Of a stretch of DNA of 43,480 nt, positions 15,040 to 22,620 are shown piece after piece. The notes under the pieces are model-generated. The model worked only from the letters and a program-made list of their open reading frames with translations. It was not told the DNA's origin and searched no databases. Each line of letters begins with the position of its first letter. Within the stretch, counting starts at the first letter, position 1. This DNA comes from Clostridia bacterium (GTDB lineage: Bacteria > Bacillota > Clostridia > Christensenellales > Aristaeellaceae), in NCBI GenBank assembly GCA_017936375.1, contig JAGBFR010000035.1:1-43480 (forward strand). Reading direction: 5' to 3'. A program made the position numbers and the translations under genes.

Positions 15040-15720
15040 ATGAATATATTCGACATTCTGGGGCCGGTGATGGTCGGCCCGAGCAGCTCGCATACCGCGG
15101 GCGCCGTGCGCATCGGGCGCATTGCGCGCCGGCTGCTTGGCGAGGGCACGCCCGTGCATGCATGGATCGGGCTGAGCGGCTCCTTCGCCGCCACGGGCCG
15201 GGGCCACGGCACGGACCGCGCAATCATCGCGGGCCTGCTCGGCATGCAGACGGACGACGAGCGCATCGCCTCGAGCTTTGCCTGCGCCGCGCAGGAGGGC
15301 ATGGCCTTCACCTTTGAGAGCGTGAAATTGACGGGCGAGCACCCCAATACGGCCAAGCTCATCCTGACGGCCAGAAGCGGGCGGACGATGGAGATGGTCG
15401 CCTCCTCGCTGGGCGGCGGGCGGATCATGGTCGTGGAGCTCGATGGCCTGCGCGCCAATTTTTCCGGCGATCTGCCGACGCTCATCGTGCAGAATATGGA
15501 CCAGCCGGGCCATGTCAGCGACGTGACGAGCATGCTCGCGCACAAGGGCATCAACATCGCGACCCTGCAGCTTTCACGCGATCATCCCGGCGGAAACGCC
15601 GTCATGATCCTTGAGATCGACAAGGCCGTGCCGCAGGAGGGCATCGCATGGCTCGCACGGACGGAGGGTATCCGCCGCGTCACGTTCGTGGATGCGGAGC
15701 CCGTCGAGGTGCAGGCATAA
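15040..15720 (+). CDS. sdaAB: L-serine dehydratase, iron-sulfur type, beta subunit
   Basis: A 226-residue subunit of the oxygen-sensitive enzyme that turns L-serine into pyruvate and ammonia. It opens with the diagnostic NIFDILGPVMVGPSSSHTAG block and ends with an ACT domain (about residues 148-222; QPGHVSDVTSMLAHKGINIA), which in this family senses or positions serine. The alpha subunit gene begins 20 bases later in the same operon. The split two-subunit arrangement is characteristic of Firmicutes. Confidence 0.95.
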   Translation: MNIFDILGPVMVGPSSSHTAGAVRIGRIARRLLGEGTPVHAWIGLSGSFAATGRGHGTDRAIIAGLLGMQTDDERIASSFACAAQEGMAFTFESVKLTGEHPNTAKLILTARSGRTMEMVASSLGGGRIMVVELDGLRANFSGDLPTLIVQNMDQPGHVSDVTSMLAHKGINIATLQLSRDHPGGNAVMILEIDKAVPQEGIAWLARTEGIRRVTFVDAEPVEVQA

Positions 15721-15740
15721 GGCTGAAGGAGGAAACGGAT

Positions 15741-16613
15741 ATGGCGATTGATTCCCTTGCCGGGCTGATGCAGGCCGGAGCGGAACGCGATCTTTTTGAT
15801 GTGATTCTTGAAAACGACTGCCGCGAGCGCGGCGCTTTGCGGGAGGATTCCCTCGCACGCATGCGCATGCTCTATGCGGCGATCCGGCGCGCCGGGCGGG
15901 GATACGATCCTGCGCTGCGCTCGGGCAGCGGCATGGTCGGCGGCGACGGCGCGAGGATGCGCGCGCACGCAGCCTCGGGAAAGACCATCTGCGGCGAGTA
16001 TATCGGCAGCGTGATCGCGCAGGCGCTGGAGATGGGCGAGAGCAACGCATGCATGAAGTGCATCGTCGCCGCGCCGACGGCGGGCAGCTGCGGCGTGCTC
16101 CCGGCGGTGCTGCTGCCCTATCAGCAGCGCGAGGGGCTTGACGACGAGACGATGGTCCGCGCGATGTATGTGTCCGGCATGATCGGCCAGATCATCGCCA
16201 GGAAGGCGTCCATCGCGGGCGCGTCCGGCGGCTGTCAGGCGGAGATCGGCTCCGCCAGCGCGATGGCGGCTGCGGCGCTGTGCTATCTGGCGGGCGGCAG
16301 CGCGGAGGCGGTCTGCCATGCCGCGGCGATCGCGGTCAAGAGCCTGCTCGGCCTCGTGTGCGACCCGATTGCGGGCCTTGTCGAGGTGCCGTGCGTCAAG
16401 CGCAATGCCGCGGGCGCGATGATCGCCATGTCCAGCGCGGATATGGCGCTTGCCGGCATCCGCTCGGCTGTGCCGCCGGACGAGGTCATCGCGGCGATGC
16501 GCGAGGTTGGCGACAAGATGGACGTCTCTCTCAAGGAGACGGGCGTCGGCGGCGTTGCGGGCACGCCCTTCGGGCAGAGCATCGCCAAAAAGATGAGCGG
16601 GAAAAGTGAATAA
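15741..16613 (+). CDS. sdaAA: L-serine dehydratase, iron-sulfur type, alpha subunit
   Basis: The 290-residue catalytic subunit that carries the [4Fe-4S] cluster. Conserved cysteine regions are visible: CMKCIVAAPTAGSCGVLP, GGCQAEIG and the GLVCDPIAGLVEVPCVKRNA block, together with the terminal VGGVAGTPFG. The start at 15741 has an AGGAGG site 8 bases upstream; the frame is open 31 codons further but only inside sdaAB. It ends the operon at a perfect palindromic terminator. Confidence 0.95.
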   Translation: MAIDSLAGLMQAGAERDLFDVILENDCRERGALREDSLARMRMLYAAIRRAGRGYDPALRSGSGMVGGDGARMRAHAASGKTICGEYIGSVIAQALEMGESNACMKCIVAAPTAGSCGVLPAVLLPYQQREGLDDETMVRAMYVSGMIGQIIARKASIAGASGGCQAEIGSASAMAAAALCYLAGGSAEAVCHAAAIAVKSLLGLVCDPIAGLVEVPCVKRNAAGAMIAMSSADMALAGIRSAVPPDEVIAAMREVGDKMDVSLKETGVGGVAGTPFGQSIAKKMSGKSE

Positions 16614-16880: not shown

Positions 16881-18419
16881 TTAATGCGTCATGAGGGCGT
16901 TTGTTATTTCCTTCAGCCCATCCTTCCCAAGCTCCACCGCCCTCGTGCAGACCTCGCGCGCAAAGCGCTCGTCGTGCGAGACGGCGATGATGCAGCCGGG
17001 ATATTCCGCAAAGAGCGCGCGGATCACCGGGCCGGAGAGGGGCGAGATGTTGCGCGTGGGCTCGTCGAGCAGCAGCACGTTGGCGCTTGCATTGGCCATC
17101 ATCAGGAACATGAGCTTCGCCTTCTGCCCGCCGGAGAGGCCGCGGCAGGGGTGCTCCATCTCCTCGGGGGTGAATTTCATGGAGCCCAGCGCGATGCGGC
17201 TGCGCGTGGTCTCATCCTTGTCCCATGTGACGGCGAGCATCTCCACGGGCGTCTTGTCCATGTCCAGCATGTCGCATGGGTCCTGCGGCATATAGAAGAC
17301 GCGCAGGTCGGCGCGGTCCCGGATCTCTTCATGGATCGCGCGAAGGAGGGTCGATTTGCCCGCGCCGTTGCGCCCGGCGAGGAGCAGCCTGTCCCGCCCG
17401 CGAACGACGAGCCTCAGATCCCGCGCGAGCACGCGCCCGGGGACGGTGAGCTCCGGCAGGGTCATGTCCAGCACCACCTTGCCCGGGGGCAGGGGCTCGC
17501 AGTCGAGCTTGGCGAAGATGGCCTCCTCGCTCTCGGGCATGTCGGTCATGTCCTCCGCCTCGCGCTCAAAGCGCCGGCCCATGCTCGTCACGGCGGCCAT
17601 CTTTTTCTTGAGCAGCCTGCCGCCGTGCGGGTCCTGCCGGGAGATGGTGTTCTGCTGGTGCTCGACCTTCTGGCGGATCTGGTCGTAGCGGCGCATCTTC
17701 TTGTCGAATTCCTCCCGCTCCTTGCGGGCGACCTGCTCCTGATGCGCCATGGACGAGGCGCGGGTCGAGACGAATTCCTCATAGCGCATCCGCCATACCG
17801 TCGCGCGCGGCACCTGCCTGCGCCGCAGCCGCTCGATGTGGATGATGACGTTCGCTGCCGCGTCAAGGAGCTCCTCGTCGTGGGAGACAAAGACCGTGGG
17901 GATGCGGCAGGAGGCGATGAAGCCGCGCAGCCAGCGCACGGTCGAAAGGTCCAGGTCGTTGCTCGGCTCGTCGAGCAGCAGCAGCGAGGGCTTCTCCATC
18001 AGGATGCGCGTAAGCTGGAGCTTGACGCGCTCCCCGCCGGAGAAGCTGCTCATCGTCTGCTCGCTGTAGAAGACGTCCTGCGGAAGGGCCGCCTGCCGGG
18101 CGAGGTCGATGAGCTCCCGCGGCGTCTGGTCAAAGAAGGCGGGGCTGGCGCTGAAGAATTCATATGCGCTCATTTCGCGTTCATCGGCGGGCAGCTCCTG
18201 CGGCAGATAGCCGCGCGCGCCTGTGACGCTGATCGTTCCCTCATAGGAAACGTAGGGCGCGTCCAGCCCGGCGAGCAGGCGCAGGATGGTGGATTTGCCG
18301 TTGCCCTCCTCGCCGATGAGCGCGGCGCGCTCGCCCTCGCGCAGGGAGAAGGACAGGTCCGTGACCAGCGGGGTCAGATCCTTGTTGTGGTGGATGGAAA
18401 GGTGCTGAATCTGAAGCAT
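16881..18419 (-). CDS. ABC-F family ATPase, antibiotic-resistance (ribosome protection) type
   Basis: A 512-residue cytoplasmic protein with two ABC ATPase domains and no membrane segments, as in ABC-F factors that bind the ribosomal E site and dislodge drugs. Domain 1 (about residues 1-215): Walker A GEEGNGKST, signature FSGGERVKLQL, Walker B LLLLDEPSNDLD. A long charged linker follows (about 225-290; RKEREEFDKKMRRYD...LLKKKMAAV), the part that reaches the peptidyl transferase centre in resistance members. Domain 2: AGRNGAGKST, LSGGQKAKLMF, and LLDEPTRNISPLSG in place of the usual NHLD. An attenuator-like leader supports a drug-responsive role; which drug class is not known. Confidence 0.88.
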   Translation of the reverse strand: MLQIQHLSIHHNKDLTPLVTDLSFSLREGERAALIGEEGNGKSTILRLLAGLDAPYVSYEGTISVTGARGYLPQELPADEREMSAYEFFSASPAFFDQTPRELIDLARQAALPQDVFYSEQTMSSFSGGERVKLQLTRILMEKPSLLLLDEPSNDLDLSTVRWLRGFIASCRIPTVFVSHDEELLDAAANVIIHIERLRRRQVPRATVWRMRYEEFVSTRASSMAHQEQVARKEREEFDKKMRRYDQIRQKVEHQQNTISRQDPHGGRLLKKKMAAVTSMGRRFEREAEDMTDMPESEEAIFAKLDCEPLPPGKVVLDMTLPELTVPGRVLARDLRLVVRGRDRLLLAGRNGAGKSTLLRAIHEEIRDRADLRVFYMPQDPCDMLDMDKTPVEMLAVTWDKDETTRSRIALGSMKFTPEEMEHPCRGLSGGQKAKLMFLMMANASANVLLLDEPTRNISPLSGPVIRALFAEYPGCIIAVSHDERFAREVCTRAVELGKDGLKEITNALMTH

Positions 18420-18436
18420 GCGTTCATATCCTCATC

Positions 18437-18534
18437 AAAACCGGCATGCTGCCGGCGGCATCACCGACCAAGTACCGCAAATCTCTTTCCTTTGCGAACG
18501 AGGCCGATGCTTTTCAGATTTACATAACAAAAAA
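18437..18534. repeat. Structured repeat copy A (~98 bases), in the ABC-F leader
   Basis: It shares an almost identical end (ACCGGCATGCTGCCGGCGGC and following ATCACCGAC) with copy B at 22626-22727, and the same overall plan: an internal AAATC/GATTT pair and a terminal A-run that on the minus strand is the T-tract of the preceding terminator. The middle part has diverged. Confidence 0.75.
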
Positions 18535-18561
18535 CCGCCCGCAGCGCTGGGCTGCAGGCGG
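18529..18561 (-). terminator. Leader (attenuator) terminator upstream of the ABC-F gene
   Basis: On the minus strand CCGCCTGCAGC pairs with GCTGCGGGCGG (one T-G pair) over a CCAGC loop and is followed by TTTTTTG. It lies between the promoter and the coding region, about 110 bases before the start codon. A leader segment upstream (18620-18628 on the plus strand) is complementary to its 5' arm, giving a candidate antiterminator. Confidence 0.8.
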
Positions 18562-18662
18562 ACGTCACGCGCAAATAAGCCCGGACAGGGCTGGAGGCGG
18601 CGCAAGGGATTCCGTTTTTCTGCAGCACAAAAACACGCGGCTTTGTGTCCATAAAAACAGAA

Positions 18663-18674
18663 TTACCTGCGCAT
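18663..18674 (-). CDS. Three-codon leader ORF (Met-Arg-Arg-stop)
   Basis: The minus-strand leader has a good AAGAGGTGA ribosome binding site (18679-18687) just before ATG CGC AGG TAA. It is the first ATG after the expected transcript start. Short upstream ORFs that sense drug-stalled ribosomes are known for ABC-F and erm resistance genes, and Arg-x-Arg-type motifs are known macrolide stalling signals; the application here is inference. Confidence 0.5.
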   Translation of the reverse strand: MRR

Positions 18675-18702
18675 CGTGTCACCTCTTGATCATTCTGCCT
18701 GT

Positions 18703-18732
18703 ATGATAGCATGGCCGCGGGCGGCGCGTCAA
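18703..18732 (-). promoter_or_regulatory. Promoter of the ABC-F gene
   Basis: On the minus strand TTGACG (18727-18732), 18-base spacer, TATCAT (18703-18708). The transcript starts near 18696, leaving a leader of roughly 275 bases. Confidence 0.75.
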
Positions 18733-18898: not shown

Positions 18899-20710
18899 AT
18901 GATGAAGAAGGGGATCCTCGGCGCGCTGGGGCGCCTTGGCGGGCAGGTTGGGCCGTATAAGAAGAACGCCCTGCTCTCGCCCATGTTCACGACGCTCTGC
19001 GTCATTTTGGAAATTTATATCCCGTACCTCACCGCGTCCATCATCGACGACGGCATCGCGGTGGGCGATATGGCGCATGTGGTCAGGACCGGCGTTCTGA
19101 TGATGGTGATGGCGGCGCTCGCCGCGTTTTTTGGCGTGCAGGCCGGCACGCACTCCTCCCGCGCGTCCACGGGCTTTGCCTGCAACCTGCGCGAGACGAT
19201 GTTCGGCCGGATTCAGGCGTACTCTTTTTCCAACATCGATAAGTTCTCCACCGCCGGCCTCGTCACGCGCCTGACGACGGACGTGACCAACGTGCAGAAC
19301 GCCTTCCAGATGGTGATGATGCTCTGCACCCGCGCGCCGATGACGCTGATTGTCGCGCTGGTGATGGCCTTCTCCATCAGCGCGCGCCTGTCTATGATCT
19401 TCCTGGGGGTCATGGTGGTGCTGATCGTGCTGCTGGCGGTGCTCATCCCGATGGCGATGAAGTACTTCAAGCAGATGTTCAAGAAGTACGACGTGATCAA
19501 CGCCGTCATCAAGGAGAATATCGGCTCTATCCGCGTGGTCAAGAGCTTTGTGCGCGAGGCGCATGAAAACGAGAAGTTTGAGCGCGCGGCTGGCGACGTG
19601 TATGACAACTCCGTCGCGGCGGAGAAGATCATGTCCCTGCATAACCCGATCATGATGACCTGCGTGCGCACCTGCACGCTGCTGATCTCCTGGTTCGGCG
19701 CGCAGATGATCGTGCGCGGCACGGGCCTGACCACGGGCGAACTGACGAGCCTGCTCTCCTACGTGATGAGCGTGCTCTTCAGCCTGATGATGCTCTCGAT
19801 GGCCTTTGTCATGATCACCCAGTCTGCCGCGGCGGTGGAGCGCATCGACGAGGTGCTCTGCGAGGAGATCGACATCGTCTCCCCGGAGAATGCCGTCAAG
19901 ACCGTCCGGGACGGCTCCATTGAATTTGACAACGTGGCCTTCTCCTATCAGGGGAAGGGCGGCAAGCGCGTCCTGCAGGATGTGACGCTGAAGATCCATT
20001 CCGGCGAGACCGTCGGCATCCTCGGCGGCACGGGCAGCGCGAAGTCCACCCTCGTCTCGCTCATCTCCCGCCTGTACGATGCGACGGAGGGCAGCGTGAA
20101 GGTCGGCGGCGAGGACGTGCGCCGCTATGATATTGAAGCCCTGCGCAGTGAGGTCGCCGTCGTCCTGCAGAAGAATGTGCTCTTCTCCGGCACGGTGCTG
20201 GAGAATCTGCGCTGGGGCAATGAAGACGCGACCGAGGAGCAGTGCCGCGAGGCCTGCCGCCTCGCCTGCGCGGATGACTTTGTCTCCGCTATGCCCGAGG
20301 GCTACAACACCCGCATCGAGCGCGGCGGCACGAATGTATCCGGCGGGCAGAAGCAGCGCCTGTGCATTGCCCGCGCGCTGCTGAGCAGCCCGAAGGTGCT
20401 CATCCTCGACGATTCCACCTCCGCCGTCGATACCGCGACGGACGCGAAGATCCGCGCCGCGATGCGCACATACATCCCCGAGACGACCAAGATCATCATC
20501 GCCCAGCGCATCGCCTCCATCGAGGACGCCGACCGCGTGATCGTCATGGACGAGGGGCGCGTGGTCGCCTTCGATACCCCGGCGCAGCTCATGGAGACCT
20601 GCCCGATCTATCAGGAGGTCGCCCTCAGTCAGGCCGGCAGCGGCTCGGGCGACTTTGACGAGGACGCGAAGAAGGACGCGGGCAGCGTGAAGGGAGGCGA
20701 GCGCGCATGA
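18899..20710 (+). CDS. ABC exporter half-transporter 1 (degenerate-site subunit)
   Basis: About 603 residues: an N-terminal six-helix ABC exporter domain (about residues 1-310) fused to an ATPase domain. It has Walker A GGTGSAKST, in which Ala replaces the usual Gly before Lys; the signature VSGGQKQRL; and Walker B ending LILDDSTSAVD, with Asp in place of the catalytic Glu. That substitution marks the non-catalytic half of heterodimeric exporters such as the TM287/288 and BmrCD types. The start at 18899 (or 18902) follows AAAAGGGGG; the frame is open to 18830 but only through the promoter. It overlaps the next gene by 4 bases. Drug or lipid export is likely; the substrate is unknown. Confidence 0.92.
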   Translation: MMKKGILGALGRLGGQVGPYKKNALLSPMFTTLCVILEIYIPYLTASIIDDGIAVGDMAHVVRTGVLMMVMAALAAFFGVQAGTHSSRASTGFACNLRETMFGRIQAYSFSNIDKFSTAGLVTRLTTDVTNVQNAFQMVMMLCTRAPMTLIVALVMAFSISARLSMIFLGVMVVLIVLLAVLIPMAMKYFKQMFKKYDVINAVIKENIGSIRVVKSFVREAHENEKFERAAGDVYDNSVAAEKIMSLHNPIMMTCVRTCTLLISWFGAQMIVRGTGLTTGELTSLLSYVMSVLFSLMMLSMAFVMITQSAAAVERIDEVLCEEIDIVSPENAVKTVRDGSIEFDNVAFSYQGKGGKRVLQDVTLKIHSGETVGILGGTGSAKSTLVSLISRLYDATEGSVKVGGEDVRRYDIEALRSEVAVVLQKNVLFSGTVLENLRWGNEDATEEQCREACRLACADDFVSAMPEGYNTRIERGGTNVSGGQKQRLCIARALLSSPKVLILDDSTSAVDTATDAKIRAAMRTYIPETTKIIIAQRIASIEDADRVIVMDEGRVVAFDTPAQLMETCPIYQEVALSQAGSGSGDFDEDAKKDAGSVKGGERA

Positions 20711-22620
20711 TGAGAGGACCCGGCGGCCCCAACGCCCGCATGAAGAACGCGGGCAGGCCCGGCGCAAAGAACCCGATGAAGACCTTCCGGCGCATCCTCA
20801 GCGAGATTATGACGCGCTACAAGTGGCATTACCTGCTCGTCTTCGTCTGCATCTTTGTCAATACGATCACCAATATTCAGGGCCAGCTCTTCTCCCAGAC
20901 GCTCATCGACGACCATATCCTGCCGATGATGGGCGTGGAGAACCCGGACTTCGGCCCGCTCGGGCGGGCGATTCTGGGCATTACGCTTGTATATCTCGTG
21001 GGTACGTTCGCCGCGTGGCTGCAGAATTACCTGATGATCTTCGTCACCCAGGGCACGCTGCGCGACCTGCGGCTCAAGGTGTTCAAAAAGATGGAGCGCC
21101 TGCCTATCAAGTACTTTGACACCCACGCGCACGGCGACGTCATGAGCGTCTACACCAACGACATCGACACCATGCGCCAGATGATCTCCCAGTCGCTGAT
21201 CCAGCTGGTGACGAGCGTGGTGACGATCGTGAGCGTCCTCATTTCCATGATTGCGCTCAACGTCCCGCTGACGCTCATCACGCTGGTCATGGTCGCGCTG
21301 ATGCTGCGCATCTCCATGGGCAGGATGATGAAGTCCGGCGCGTACTTCGTCAAGCAGCAGAAGGATCTCGGCGCGGTCAACGGCTATATCGAGGAGATGA
21401 TGGACGGCCAGAAGGTCGTCAAGGTCTTCTGCCATGAGGATGAGACGCTGGAGGCCTTCCACACGCTCAATGAAAACCTGCGCGACAGCGCCTACAACGC
21501 CAACCGCATCGCCCATACCGTCATGCCGGTCAACGCCGCGATGGGCAATATCAGCTATGTGCTCTGCGCGGTGGCGGGCGGCATGCTCGCGGCCAACGGC
21601 TACCTCGGCCTGACCATCGGCACGCTGGTCTCCTTCCTCTCGCTCAACCGCAGCTTCTCCCAGCCGATCAACAACGTCTCCCAGCAGGCCAATTCCATCG
21701 TCATGGCGCTGGCCGGCGCGGAGCGCGTCTTTGCCCTGCTCGACGAGGAGCCGGAGGCGGACGAGGGCTATGTGACGCTGGTCAATGCCAAGCGCAGCCC
21801 CGACGGCACGCTGACGGAGTGCGCGGAGCGCACCGGCCTGTGGGCATGGAAGCACCCGCACAAGTCGACCGGCGTGACCGAATACGTGGAGCTCAGGGGC
21901 GATATCGTCATGGACGGCGTGGACTTTGGCTACACGGATGAAAAGATGGTCCTGCACGACATCAAACTCTACGCCACCCCGGGGCAGAAGATCGCCTTCG
22001 TCGGCTCCACCGGCGCGGGCAAGACGACCATCACCAACCTCATCAACCGCTTCTACGACATTCAGGACGGCAAGATCCGCTACGACGGCATCAACATCAC
22101 CAAGATCCGCAAGGACGATCTGAGGCGGTCGCTGGGCGTCGTCCTGCAGGAGACGAATCTCTTCACCGGCACGGTCATGGAGAATATCCGCTACGGCAGG
22201 CTCGACGCGACGGACGAGGAGTGCATCGCCGCGGCAAAGCTGGCCAATGCGCACAGCTTCATCGAGAAGCTTCCCGAGGGCTATGACACCATGCTCTCCG
22301 GCAACGGCGGCAACCTCTCTCAGGGCCAGCGCCAGCTGCTCTCCATCGCGCGCGCAGCCGTCGCTGACCCGCCGGTGCTCATCCTCGACGAGGCGACCTC
22401 CTCCATCGATACCCGCACGGAGGGTCTCGTGCAGGCGGGTATGGACAGCCTGATGCACGGGCGCACGACGTTCGTCATCGCGCACAGGCTCTCGACCGTC
22501 CGCAATTCCGACTGCATCATGGTCCTTGAAAAGGGCCGCATCATCGAGCGCGGCACGCACGACGAACTCATCGAGCAGAAGGGCAAGTACTACCAGCTCT
22601 ACACGGGCGACTTTGCGTAA
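20707..22620 (+). CDS. ABC exporter half-transporter 2 (catalytic-site subunit)
   Basis: 637 residues with a basic N-terminal extension of about 30 residues, six transmembrane helices, and an ATPase domain with canonical Walker A GSTGAGKTT, signature LSQGQRQLLSIARA and Walker B with catalytic Glu (LILDEATSSID). Between the membrane and ATPase domains is an insertion of about 40 residues (around residues 350-390) also seen in the larger subunit of BmrCD-type exporters. The ATGA overlap with the first subunit implies equal synthesis. Together they form one heterodimeric export pump. Confidence 0.92.
   Translation: MMRGPGGPNARMKNAGRPGAKNPMKTFRRILSEIMTRYKWHYLLVFVCIFVNTITNIQGQLFSQTLIDDHILPMMGVENPDFGPLGRAILGITLVYLVGTFAAWLQNYLMIFVTQGTLRDLRLKVFKKMERLPIKYFDTHAHGDVMSVYTNDIDTMRQMISQSLIQLVTSVVTIVSVLISMIALNVPLTLITLVMVALMLRISMGRMMKSGAYFVKQQKDLGAVNGYIEEMMDGQKVVKVFCHEDETLEAFHTLNENLRDSAYNANRIAHTVMPVNAAMGNISYVLCAVAGGMLAANGYLGLTIGTLVSFLSLNRSFSQPINNVSQQANSIVMALAGAERVFALLDEEPEADEGYVTLVNAKRSPDGTLTECAERTGLWAWKHPHKSTGVTEYVELRGDIVMDGVDFGYTDEKMVLHDIKLYATPGQKIAFVGSTGAGKTTITNLINRFYDIQDGKIRYDGINITKIRKDDLRRSLGVVLQETNLFTGTVMENIRYGRLDATDEECIAAAKLANAHSFIEKLPEGYDTMLSGNGGNLSQGQRQLLSIARAAVADPPVLILDEATSSIDTRTEGLVQAGMDSLMHGRTTFVIAHRLSTVRNSDCIMVLEKGRIIERGTHDELIEQKGKYYQLYTGDFA

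Follow-up and report, generated by a model that had tools for sequence, protein, structure and literature searches.

A ribosome-mediated transcription attenuator is most likely encoded in the leader of an ABC-F ribosome-protection gene, where a drug-stalled ribosome on an upstream open reading frame (uORF) of three codons would permit readthrough of an intrinsic terminator (probability about 0.8). The window (the whole stretch of DNA that was analysed, 43,480 nucleotides) had been described in a first-pass annotation as carrying an attenuator-like leader ahead of this gene, fitting drug-controlled termination. In outline this description holds: it is based on the parts of the leader, their conservation, the covariation of the helices P1 and P0 and of the terminator, and the weaker terminator obtained on masking of the uORF. 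Beyond these observations we infer translation of the uORF, drug stalling as the signal, the identity of the drug and ribosome protection by the ABC-F protein. The following features were located:

18732 to 18703, minus strand: promoter-like site, TTGACG, 18-nt spacer, TATCAT, with TG before the second hexamer (consensus scan, 10/12)
18685 to 18680, minus strand: Shine–Dalgarno (SD) sequence GAGGTG, ending 5 nt before the ATG of the uORF (sequence)
18674 to 18663, minus strand: uORF ATG CGC AGG TAA, Met-Arg-Arg-stop (sequence)
18663 to 18653 with 18619 to 18609, minus strand: arms of the P1 hairpin (fold)
18606 to 18594, minus strand: 3' partner of P0, the outer helix in which the SD and uORF are paired (fold)
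18685 to 18594, minus strand: P0/P1 hairpin enclosing the SD and uORF, probable anti-antiterminator (fold, covariation of P1)
18628 to 18620, minus strand: GTGCTGCAG, proposed antiterminator strand (terminator-free fold with the uORF masked)
18561 to 18535 (stem-loop) and 18534 to 18529 (U-run), minus strand: intrinsic terminator (scan; fold −22.3 kcal/mol)
18419 to 16881, minus strand: ABC-F ATPase gene, 512 aa, ribosomal-protection-like (best NCBIfam match, solved relatives)

The layout of an ABC-F attenuator is complete in the window: the gene has its own promoter-like site, an SD with a short uORF, and a terminator. From the putative transcript start at about 18696 to the ABC-F ATG at 18419 the leader measures about 277 nt, in agreement with the roughly 275 bases given earlier, and the Met-Arg-Arg uORF and its good SD stand as annotated. 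The uORF had also been taken for the first start on the transcript; it is the first with an SD, but an extra ATG (Met-Ile-Lys-Arg-stop) stands upstream at 18693, near the putative transcript start and with no room for an SD. The terminator stem comprises 11 pairs, 9 of them G-C, and is followed by six T; its 5' arm contains CTGCAGC (18557 to 18551), which is, as claimed, the perfect complement of GCTGCAG in the loop of P1. In the 3.1 kb scanned, the chance level was 0.8 promoter-like sites in shuffles vs 3 found, and 2.0 terminator-like sites vs 4 found. The end of the terminator lies about 110 nt from the ABC-F start, vs ≤25 nt in 10 of 13 leaders of the genus. Another strong hairpin occupies this interval (18420 to 18528, minus strand), and folding places the start codon of the ABC-F gene in a base-paired region. 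The ABC-F gene is flanked by two divergent ABC exporter genes on the plus strand (about 18899 to 20710, and 20707 to 22620) and adjoined by a serine dehydratase alpha chain gene (15648 to 16613, plus strand). The Rfam search suggested in the first-pass annotation returned no family for the leader: no covariance model of Rfam 15 matched the window at its gathering score, nor the segment 18400 to 18760 up to E = 1, and a riboswitch or other known Rfam family was put low, there being no such match.

The ABC-F protein contains the Pfam domain ABC_tran twice. Its best NCBIfam model was NF000355 (ribosomal protection-like ABC-F), with 263 bits over residues 4–496 and thus below the cut-off of 380; six relatives of the protein scored 260–280 bits with the same model. 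With the CplR model NF043038 the protein reached 146 bits against a cut-off of 780, and it is therefore not a CplR. The closest solved relatives by sequence were VmlR2 (8buu) and PoxtA (7p7q), followed by Uup and EttA. A structure predicted from three sequences (mean pLDDT 77.9) showed two long linker helices and matched EttA, PoxtA, VmlR2 and Uup about equally, so that the predicted fold does not separate resistance from housekeeping proteins. The gene probably protects ribosomes from antibiotics, with resistance as the presumed outcome. A plasmid search gave nine records with a best identity of 31%, and no close mobile copy of the gene was seen among them.

Homologues of the gene were collected by protein search from 29 genomes of the genus (20 matching at E ≤ 1e-80) and 300 genomes of the family (57 matching). 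An ultrashort uORF with an SD was found upstream of the gene in 51 of the 58 homologous loci from 57 genomes; it was absent at L014, L016, L017, L020, L029, L030 and L031. Its length was three codons in 47 cases, four in 3 and two in 1, and 45 of the 51 began with Met-Arg (MRK 24, MRI 7, MRR 4, MRN 3, others single). In a strict test (three codons, Arg second, SD, 80–300 nt upstream of the gene) 40 of 57 leaders carried M-R-x-stop; after dinucleotide shuffling (40 rounds) the average count was 0.375 and the highest 2, and the antisense strand had 0. These counts are partly manual: one uORF (L023) was set by hand, the non-Arg uORFs came from a later list, and 12 of the 19 uORFs from other families (see below) were recognised by eye. 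Two loci on contigs identical to those of L012 and L024 (L009, L010) and three already in the set (L085, L087, L091) were left out, as was the near-copy L050 from the strict test and from the pairing and masking tests on sister-genus leaders. Together with the covariation of the terminator stem within the genus, these data bear out the conservation of mini-ORF and terminator on which the annotation had staked its proposal.

In an order-wide search the protein was found at E ≤ 1e-90 in 32 of 396 genomes, 25 of them outside the family of the window. Loci from 23 of these 25, belonging to four further families (f10, f26, f31, f32), were examined by script and by eye, and 19 of the 23 had an ultrashort uORF (MRN/MRK/MRD 9, MINR, MYNK, TTG-started 8); none was seen by either means at L069, L071, L079 and L081. 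The TTG-started uORFs all precede the same ABC-F type in one of these families (L083, L086, L088, L089, L090, L092, L093, L094), seven reading Met-x-[Ile/Thr]-Arg-stop and one MKIA. A strict nucleotide pattern, AGGTG-N3..12-ATGCGNNNNTRA, has two matches in the 2.85-Mb genome, one of them in this leader; across the 29 genus genomes it gave 51 matches (reversed control 17) with just 7 ABC-F leaders among them and is thus unspecific by itself. A scan of genome contigs gave three loci only, one of them unrelated. Of 10 genus relatives examined, 9 have a frame for a MarR-like regulator running divergently from the ABC-F gene (L012, L014, L016, L017, L019, L023, L024, L026, L031; Pfam MarR for the L014 ORF, the others by likeness), at the place directly taken by two ABC exporters in the window. 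L014, L016 and L017 have no uORF leader; a sequence recognised by eye as promoter-like lies immediately in front of their ABC-F gene, next to the one for the MarR-like regulator. Judged from sequence, these three loci and L031 give the impression that control by the leader RNA was lost or gave way to another kind. Two of the genus relatives, both Clostridia, have genomes that were assembled from rectal samples of water deer.

The leader is more stable than its shuffles, both as a 172-nt segment (z −3.41; 1/200 as stable) and as a 297-nt segment (z −3.35). The hairpin with GTTTTT/AAAAAC arms of the earlier description is present as P1, but the minimum-energy fold extends outward from it: the SD GAGGTG and GCGCAGG of the uORF (18672 to 18666) pair with CGCCTC and CTTGCGC (18606 to 18594) to give P0. 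Over 14 genus leaders, 11 of the 16 pairs in P1 and the terminator were changed on both sides, and 90.4% of cells were paired, vs 84.2% in shuffled and ≤57.7% in slid controls; the alignment used (A2) stops 175 nt past the uORF, too early for the longer leaders L021 and L025, whose aligned "terminator" columns are not real terminators. For P0, pairing within leaders was compared with pairing across leaders, and 221 of 50000 permutations were as good (13 genus leaders). The corresponding helix of the sister genera, between SD-uORF and a 3' partner, was equalled in 0 of 50000 permutations with 19 leaders of <70% identity and in 0 of 20000 with 34 leaders. Control segments reached 771 (+12..+38) and 3777 (upstream) of 50000, so this permutation test has some background, and kinship is only partly controlled in the structural tests. 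L021, with its terminator undefined, was left out of the masking, antiterminator and P0 tests, and L034 and L036, with no U-run by the rule applied, out of the sister-genus ones. RNAalifold on the sister-genus alignment A1 (30 of 37 leaders, without L032, L034, L036, L040, L042, L050 and L066) did not recover the SD-uORF::3'-arm helix, because indels probably misplace the 3' arm.

For computation of the switch, a stalled ribosome was modelled, as an assumption, by keeping bases −15 to +15 around the uORF start codon unpaired. In the window, the energy gap between folds with and without the terminator was 13.2 kcal/mol before masking and 6.0 kcal/mol after it, and a drop as large was seen in 3 of 150 shuffled leaders; the masked gap itself is ordinary, 34 of 150 shuffles being as low. 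Combined over 13 genus leaders, the drop gave a Fisher p of 7.6e-6 and the masked gap 0.003, with the drop inside the shuffle range in 6 of the 13 (of 150 shuffles: L023 129, L026 81, L027 40, L028 28, L015 27, L012 22). The pairing of the P1 loop with the terminator arm, proposed in the annotation, appears as GTGCTGCAG::CTGCAGC in the best terminator-free fold of the window with the uORF masked; the antiterminator duplex showed no detectable coevolution across species, 3179 of 20000 permutations being as good, so the proposal stands as a computed, candidate antiterminator that is not backed by covariation. As the terminator is still preferred by 6 kcal/mol at equilibrium after masking, antitermination would have to be kinetic. 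The switch logic in the genus of the window is supported by these computations. In the proposed sequence of events, ribosomes would finish the three-codon uORF at once when no drug is present; the leader would then fold into the P0/P1 hairpin that encloses the SD and uORF, the P1 strands would be kept from the terminator, and RNA polymerase would stop at 18529. If a drug blocking the peptidyl transferase centre froze the ribosome on or close to the start codon of the uORF, P0 would be kept from closing; the P1 strands (GTGCTGCAG and its neighbours) would be free to pair with the arms of the terminator, and transcription would run on into the ABC-F gene.

A variant of this arrangement was found in the sister genera. 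There the stretch that immediately precedes the U-run is the complement of SD and uORF (AGGGGCGGGAAGATGCGC with GCGCAGCTTCCGGCTTTT, for instance), which can therefore be the terminator's own 5' arm. With the uORF masked, the median pairing energy of the 3' arm was 7.3 kcal/mol, as against 12.95 without masking; a drop of ≥3 was seen in 23 of 34 leaders and a rise of ≥3 in none. Because a weak local hairpin, mostly of −4 to −11 kcal/mol, could compete for the same 3' arm in many of these leaders, the switch logic of the sister genera is offered as a proposal. A degenerate 25-mer built from the sister-genus SD-uORF leaders, AAGGNGYSGRARGATGCGCAANTRA, matched 20 times in the 300 family genomes and 0 times when read backwards, with no match in genomes of the window's own genus. 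Every one of the 20 matches precedes an ABC-F start. The genes behind them comprise 14 known window-type homologues, one (L096) that starts like these with a frame of <374 aa, and five of Lsa type, all from genus g31. In 297 genomes of the order there were two matches, both before ABC-F genes and one already counted. The five Lsa-type loci are L104, L105/L109, L106, L107 and L108, three of them typed by score and L106 and L108 assigned from their first residues only. Two were scored at full length, L109 (the same gene as L105) and L107. With the Lsa model, whose cut-off is 750, they reached 610 and 619 bits and are thus Lsa-like and not formal Lsa members; with NF000355 they scored 441 and 446 bits, above the cut-off of 380. 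The partial L104 gave 571 bits to the Lsa model and 377 to NF000355. The Lsa-type protein is 26% identical to the window ABC-F. In all five Lsa-type leaders the 3' arm pairs with the SD-uORF and its pairing energy falls on masking; the fall is clear in four of them and amounts to 0.5 in L109.

A history of the lineage may be sketched from these data, tentatively and with rather less confidence than the attenuator itself deserves. The uORF would be a structural part of the terminator and not just a sensor: in the sister genera SD and uORF would form the 5' arm and the 3' arm would end in the U-run, so that a stalled ribosome sitting there would prevent termination without a dedicated antiterminator. 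Arg-2 would be kept since its codon CGC gives a self-complementary GCGC. The cassette would serve at least two ABC-F families, that of the window and the Lsa-type, having been swapped or having arisen twice, and the genus of the window would hold a derived form with a separate terminator. In the ampC attenuator of Escherichia coli, which provides growth-rate control of a beta-lactamase, a ribosome on a minimal ORF would itself block formation of the terminator. The sister-genus variant resembles ampC in this respect and differs in that ampC does not sense a drug. A uORF that serves as terminator arm of an ABC-F gene was not met in the general literature searches made.

The composition of the uORF bears on what it senses. 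Macrolide leader peptides follow a wider R/K-x-R/K stalling-motif rule. The annotation had pointed to short Arg-containing leader peptides as stalling sequences for macrolide-type drugs; on such a reading, a ribosome carrying fMet-Arg would stall before Arg-3 through the charged motif, as in erm-type attenuators. The window peptide itself and the K or R at residue 3 in 32 of the 50 uORFs having one speak for such a peptide-dependent mechanism, which we nevertheless regard as unlikely. According to an excerpt of the hflXr report, an RLR motif marks macrolide leaders (PMC6310831). Neither RLR nor R-x-R occurs in the 51 uORF peptides; residue 3 may be K, I, N, R, E, M, F, Q, H or G, and the position is elsewhere occupied by Met-Arg-Ile, -Asn, -Glu, -Phe, -Gln and -Gly, by Met-Thr-Lys, Met-Asn-Asn and others, and by the TTG-started uORF in the eight loci mentioned above. 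The codon of Arg-2 is CGC in 43 of 45 uORFs vs 19.4 expected, a number reached in 0 of 200000 simulations; the expectation was taken from the same ABC-F genes (CGC 43% of Arg codons) and is uncorrected for relatedness. This bias indicates that RNA pairing constrains codon 2. With GCGC located in P0 and residue 3 variable, the constraint acts at the RNA level, and a macrolide-type stalling peptide is not the best reading of the uORF.

A general sensor of translation or arginine supply, in which slow decoding of Arg or poor initiation would set readthrough with no drug involved, is slightly less probable still: the uORF of the window has two Arg codons, one of them AGG, and ribosome occupancy alone would act in the computations, yet residue 3 is Arg in only 4 of 50 uORFs, codon 2 is non-Arg in 6 of 51, and the genes behind the sister-genus motif are two ABC-F families and not arginine genes. 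Least probable of all, and hard to credit, is a plain or decayed terminator leader that is unregulated and owes its uORF to descent or chance. The loci L014, L016 and L017, which combine a promoter-like sequence with the absence of a leader uORF, are what this explanation can draw on, and they mark the switch as dispensable; conservation far above shuffles, the covariation and the strict association of the sister-genus motif with ABC-F starts argue against it.

The comparison with known systems was made with excerpts of the reports on vmlR (PMC9226507), hflXr (PMC6310831), cplR (PMC10201436) and are5sc/tiaA (PMC12421871), and of PMC8196190. So short an ORF had been thought possibly undescribed; three-codon uORFs, including Met-Arg-x, have in fact been published before ABC-F genes, namely MIN for vmlR with MDN, MDK and MRK in relatives (PMC9226507), MR[I/M] for cplR (PMC10201436) and MLV for are5sc (PMC12421871). 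The cplR leader of Clostridioides difficile, as far as excerpted, is like that of the window in having a Met-Arg-[Ile/Met] uORF in a 5' hairpin, a separate intrinsic terminator and an ABC-F gene, and is induced by lincomycin and retapamulin; unlike the terminator of the window, at its distance of about 110 nt from the ABC-F start, the cplR terminator also hides the main SD (PMC10201436). The vmlR leader of Bacillus subtilis likewise has a three-codon uORF in an anti-antiterminator hairpin, an alternative antiterminator and a terminator, and MRK, the commonest uORF here (24/51), functions in it, but less well; the excerpt also describes sites where RNA polymerase pauses and a hairpin at the main SD, and the ABC-F subfamily differs from that of the window (PMC9226507). 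In Streptomyces, uORFs precede are5sc and tiaA, the former with three codons and a TTG start, and lincosamide, streptogramin A and pleuromutilin drugs cause stalling at the start codon; these systems are actinobacterial and of another ABC-F subfamily, the tiaA uORF has nine codons, and a conserved predicted Met-Arg-Ser uORF of are5sc proved untranslated, according to the excerpt (PMC12421871). By analogy, lincosamides, pleuromutilins and streptogramin A, which act at the peptidyl transferase centre and stall ribosomes at or just after the start codon, would be the likelier inducers of the leader described here. No paper on leaders of this ABC-F clade was found in a literature search that left bioRxiv and most subscription journals aside.

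The findings extend attenuation by ultrashort uORFs to an ABC-F clade whose seven scored members lie below curated cut-offs and which spans five families of one order, within a group of Clostridia that has received little study. They suggest that a leader motif of about 25 bases could flag uncharacterised ABC-F genes as probably drug-inducible. Codon identity that is set by RNA pairing and not by the peptide calls for caution in reading stalling motifs from such uORFs, and a uORF that doubles as terminator arm would be a minimal design that is easily tested.
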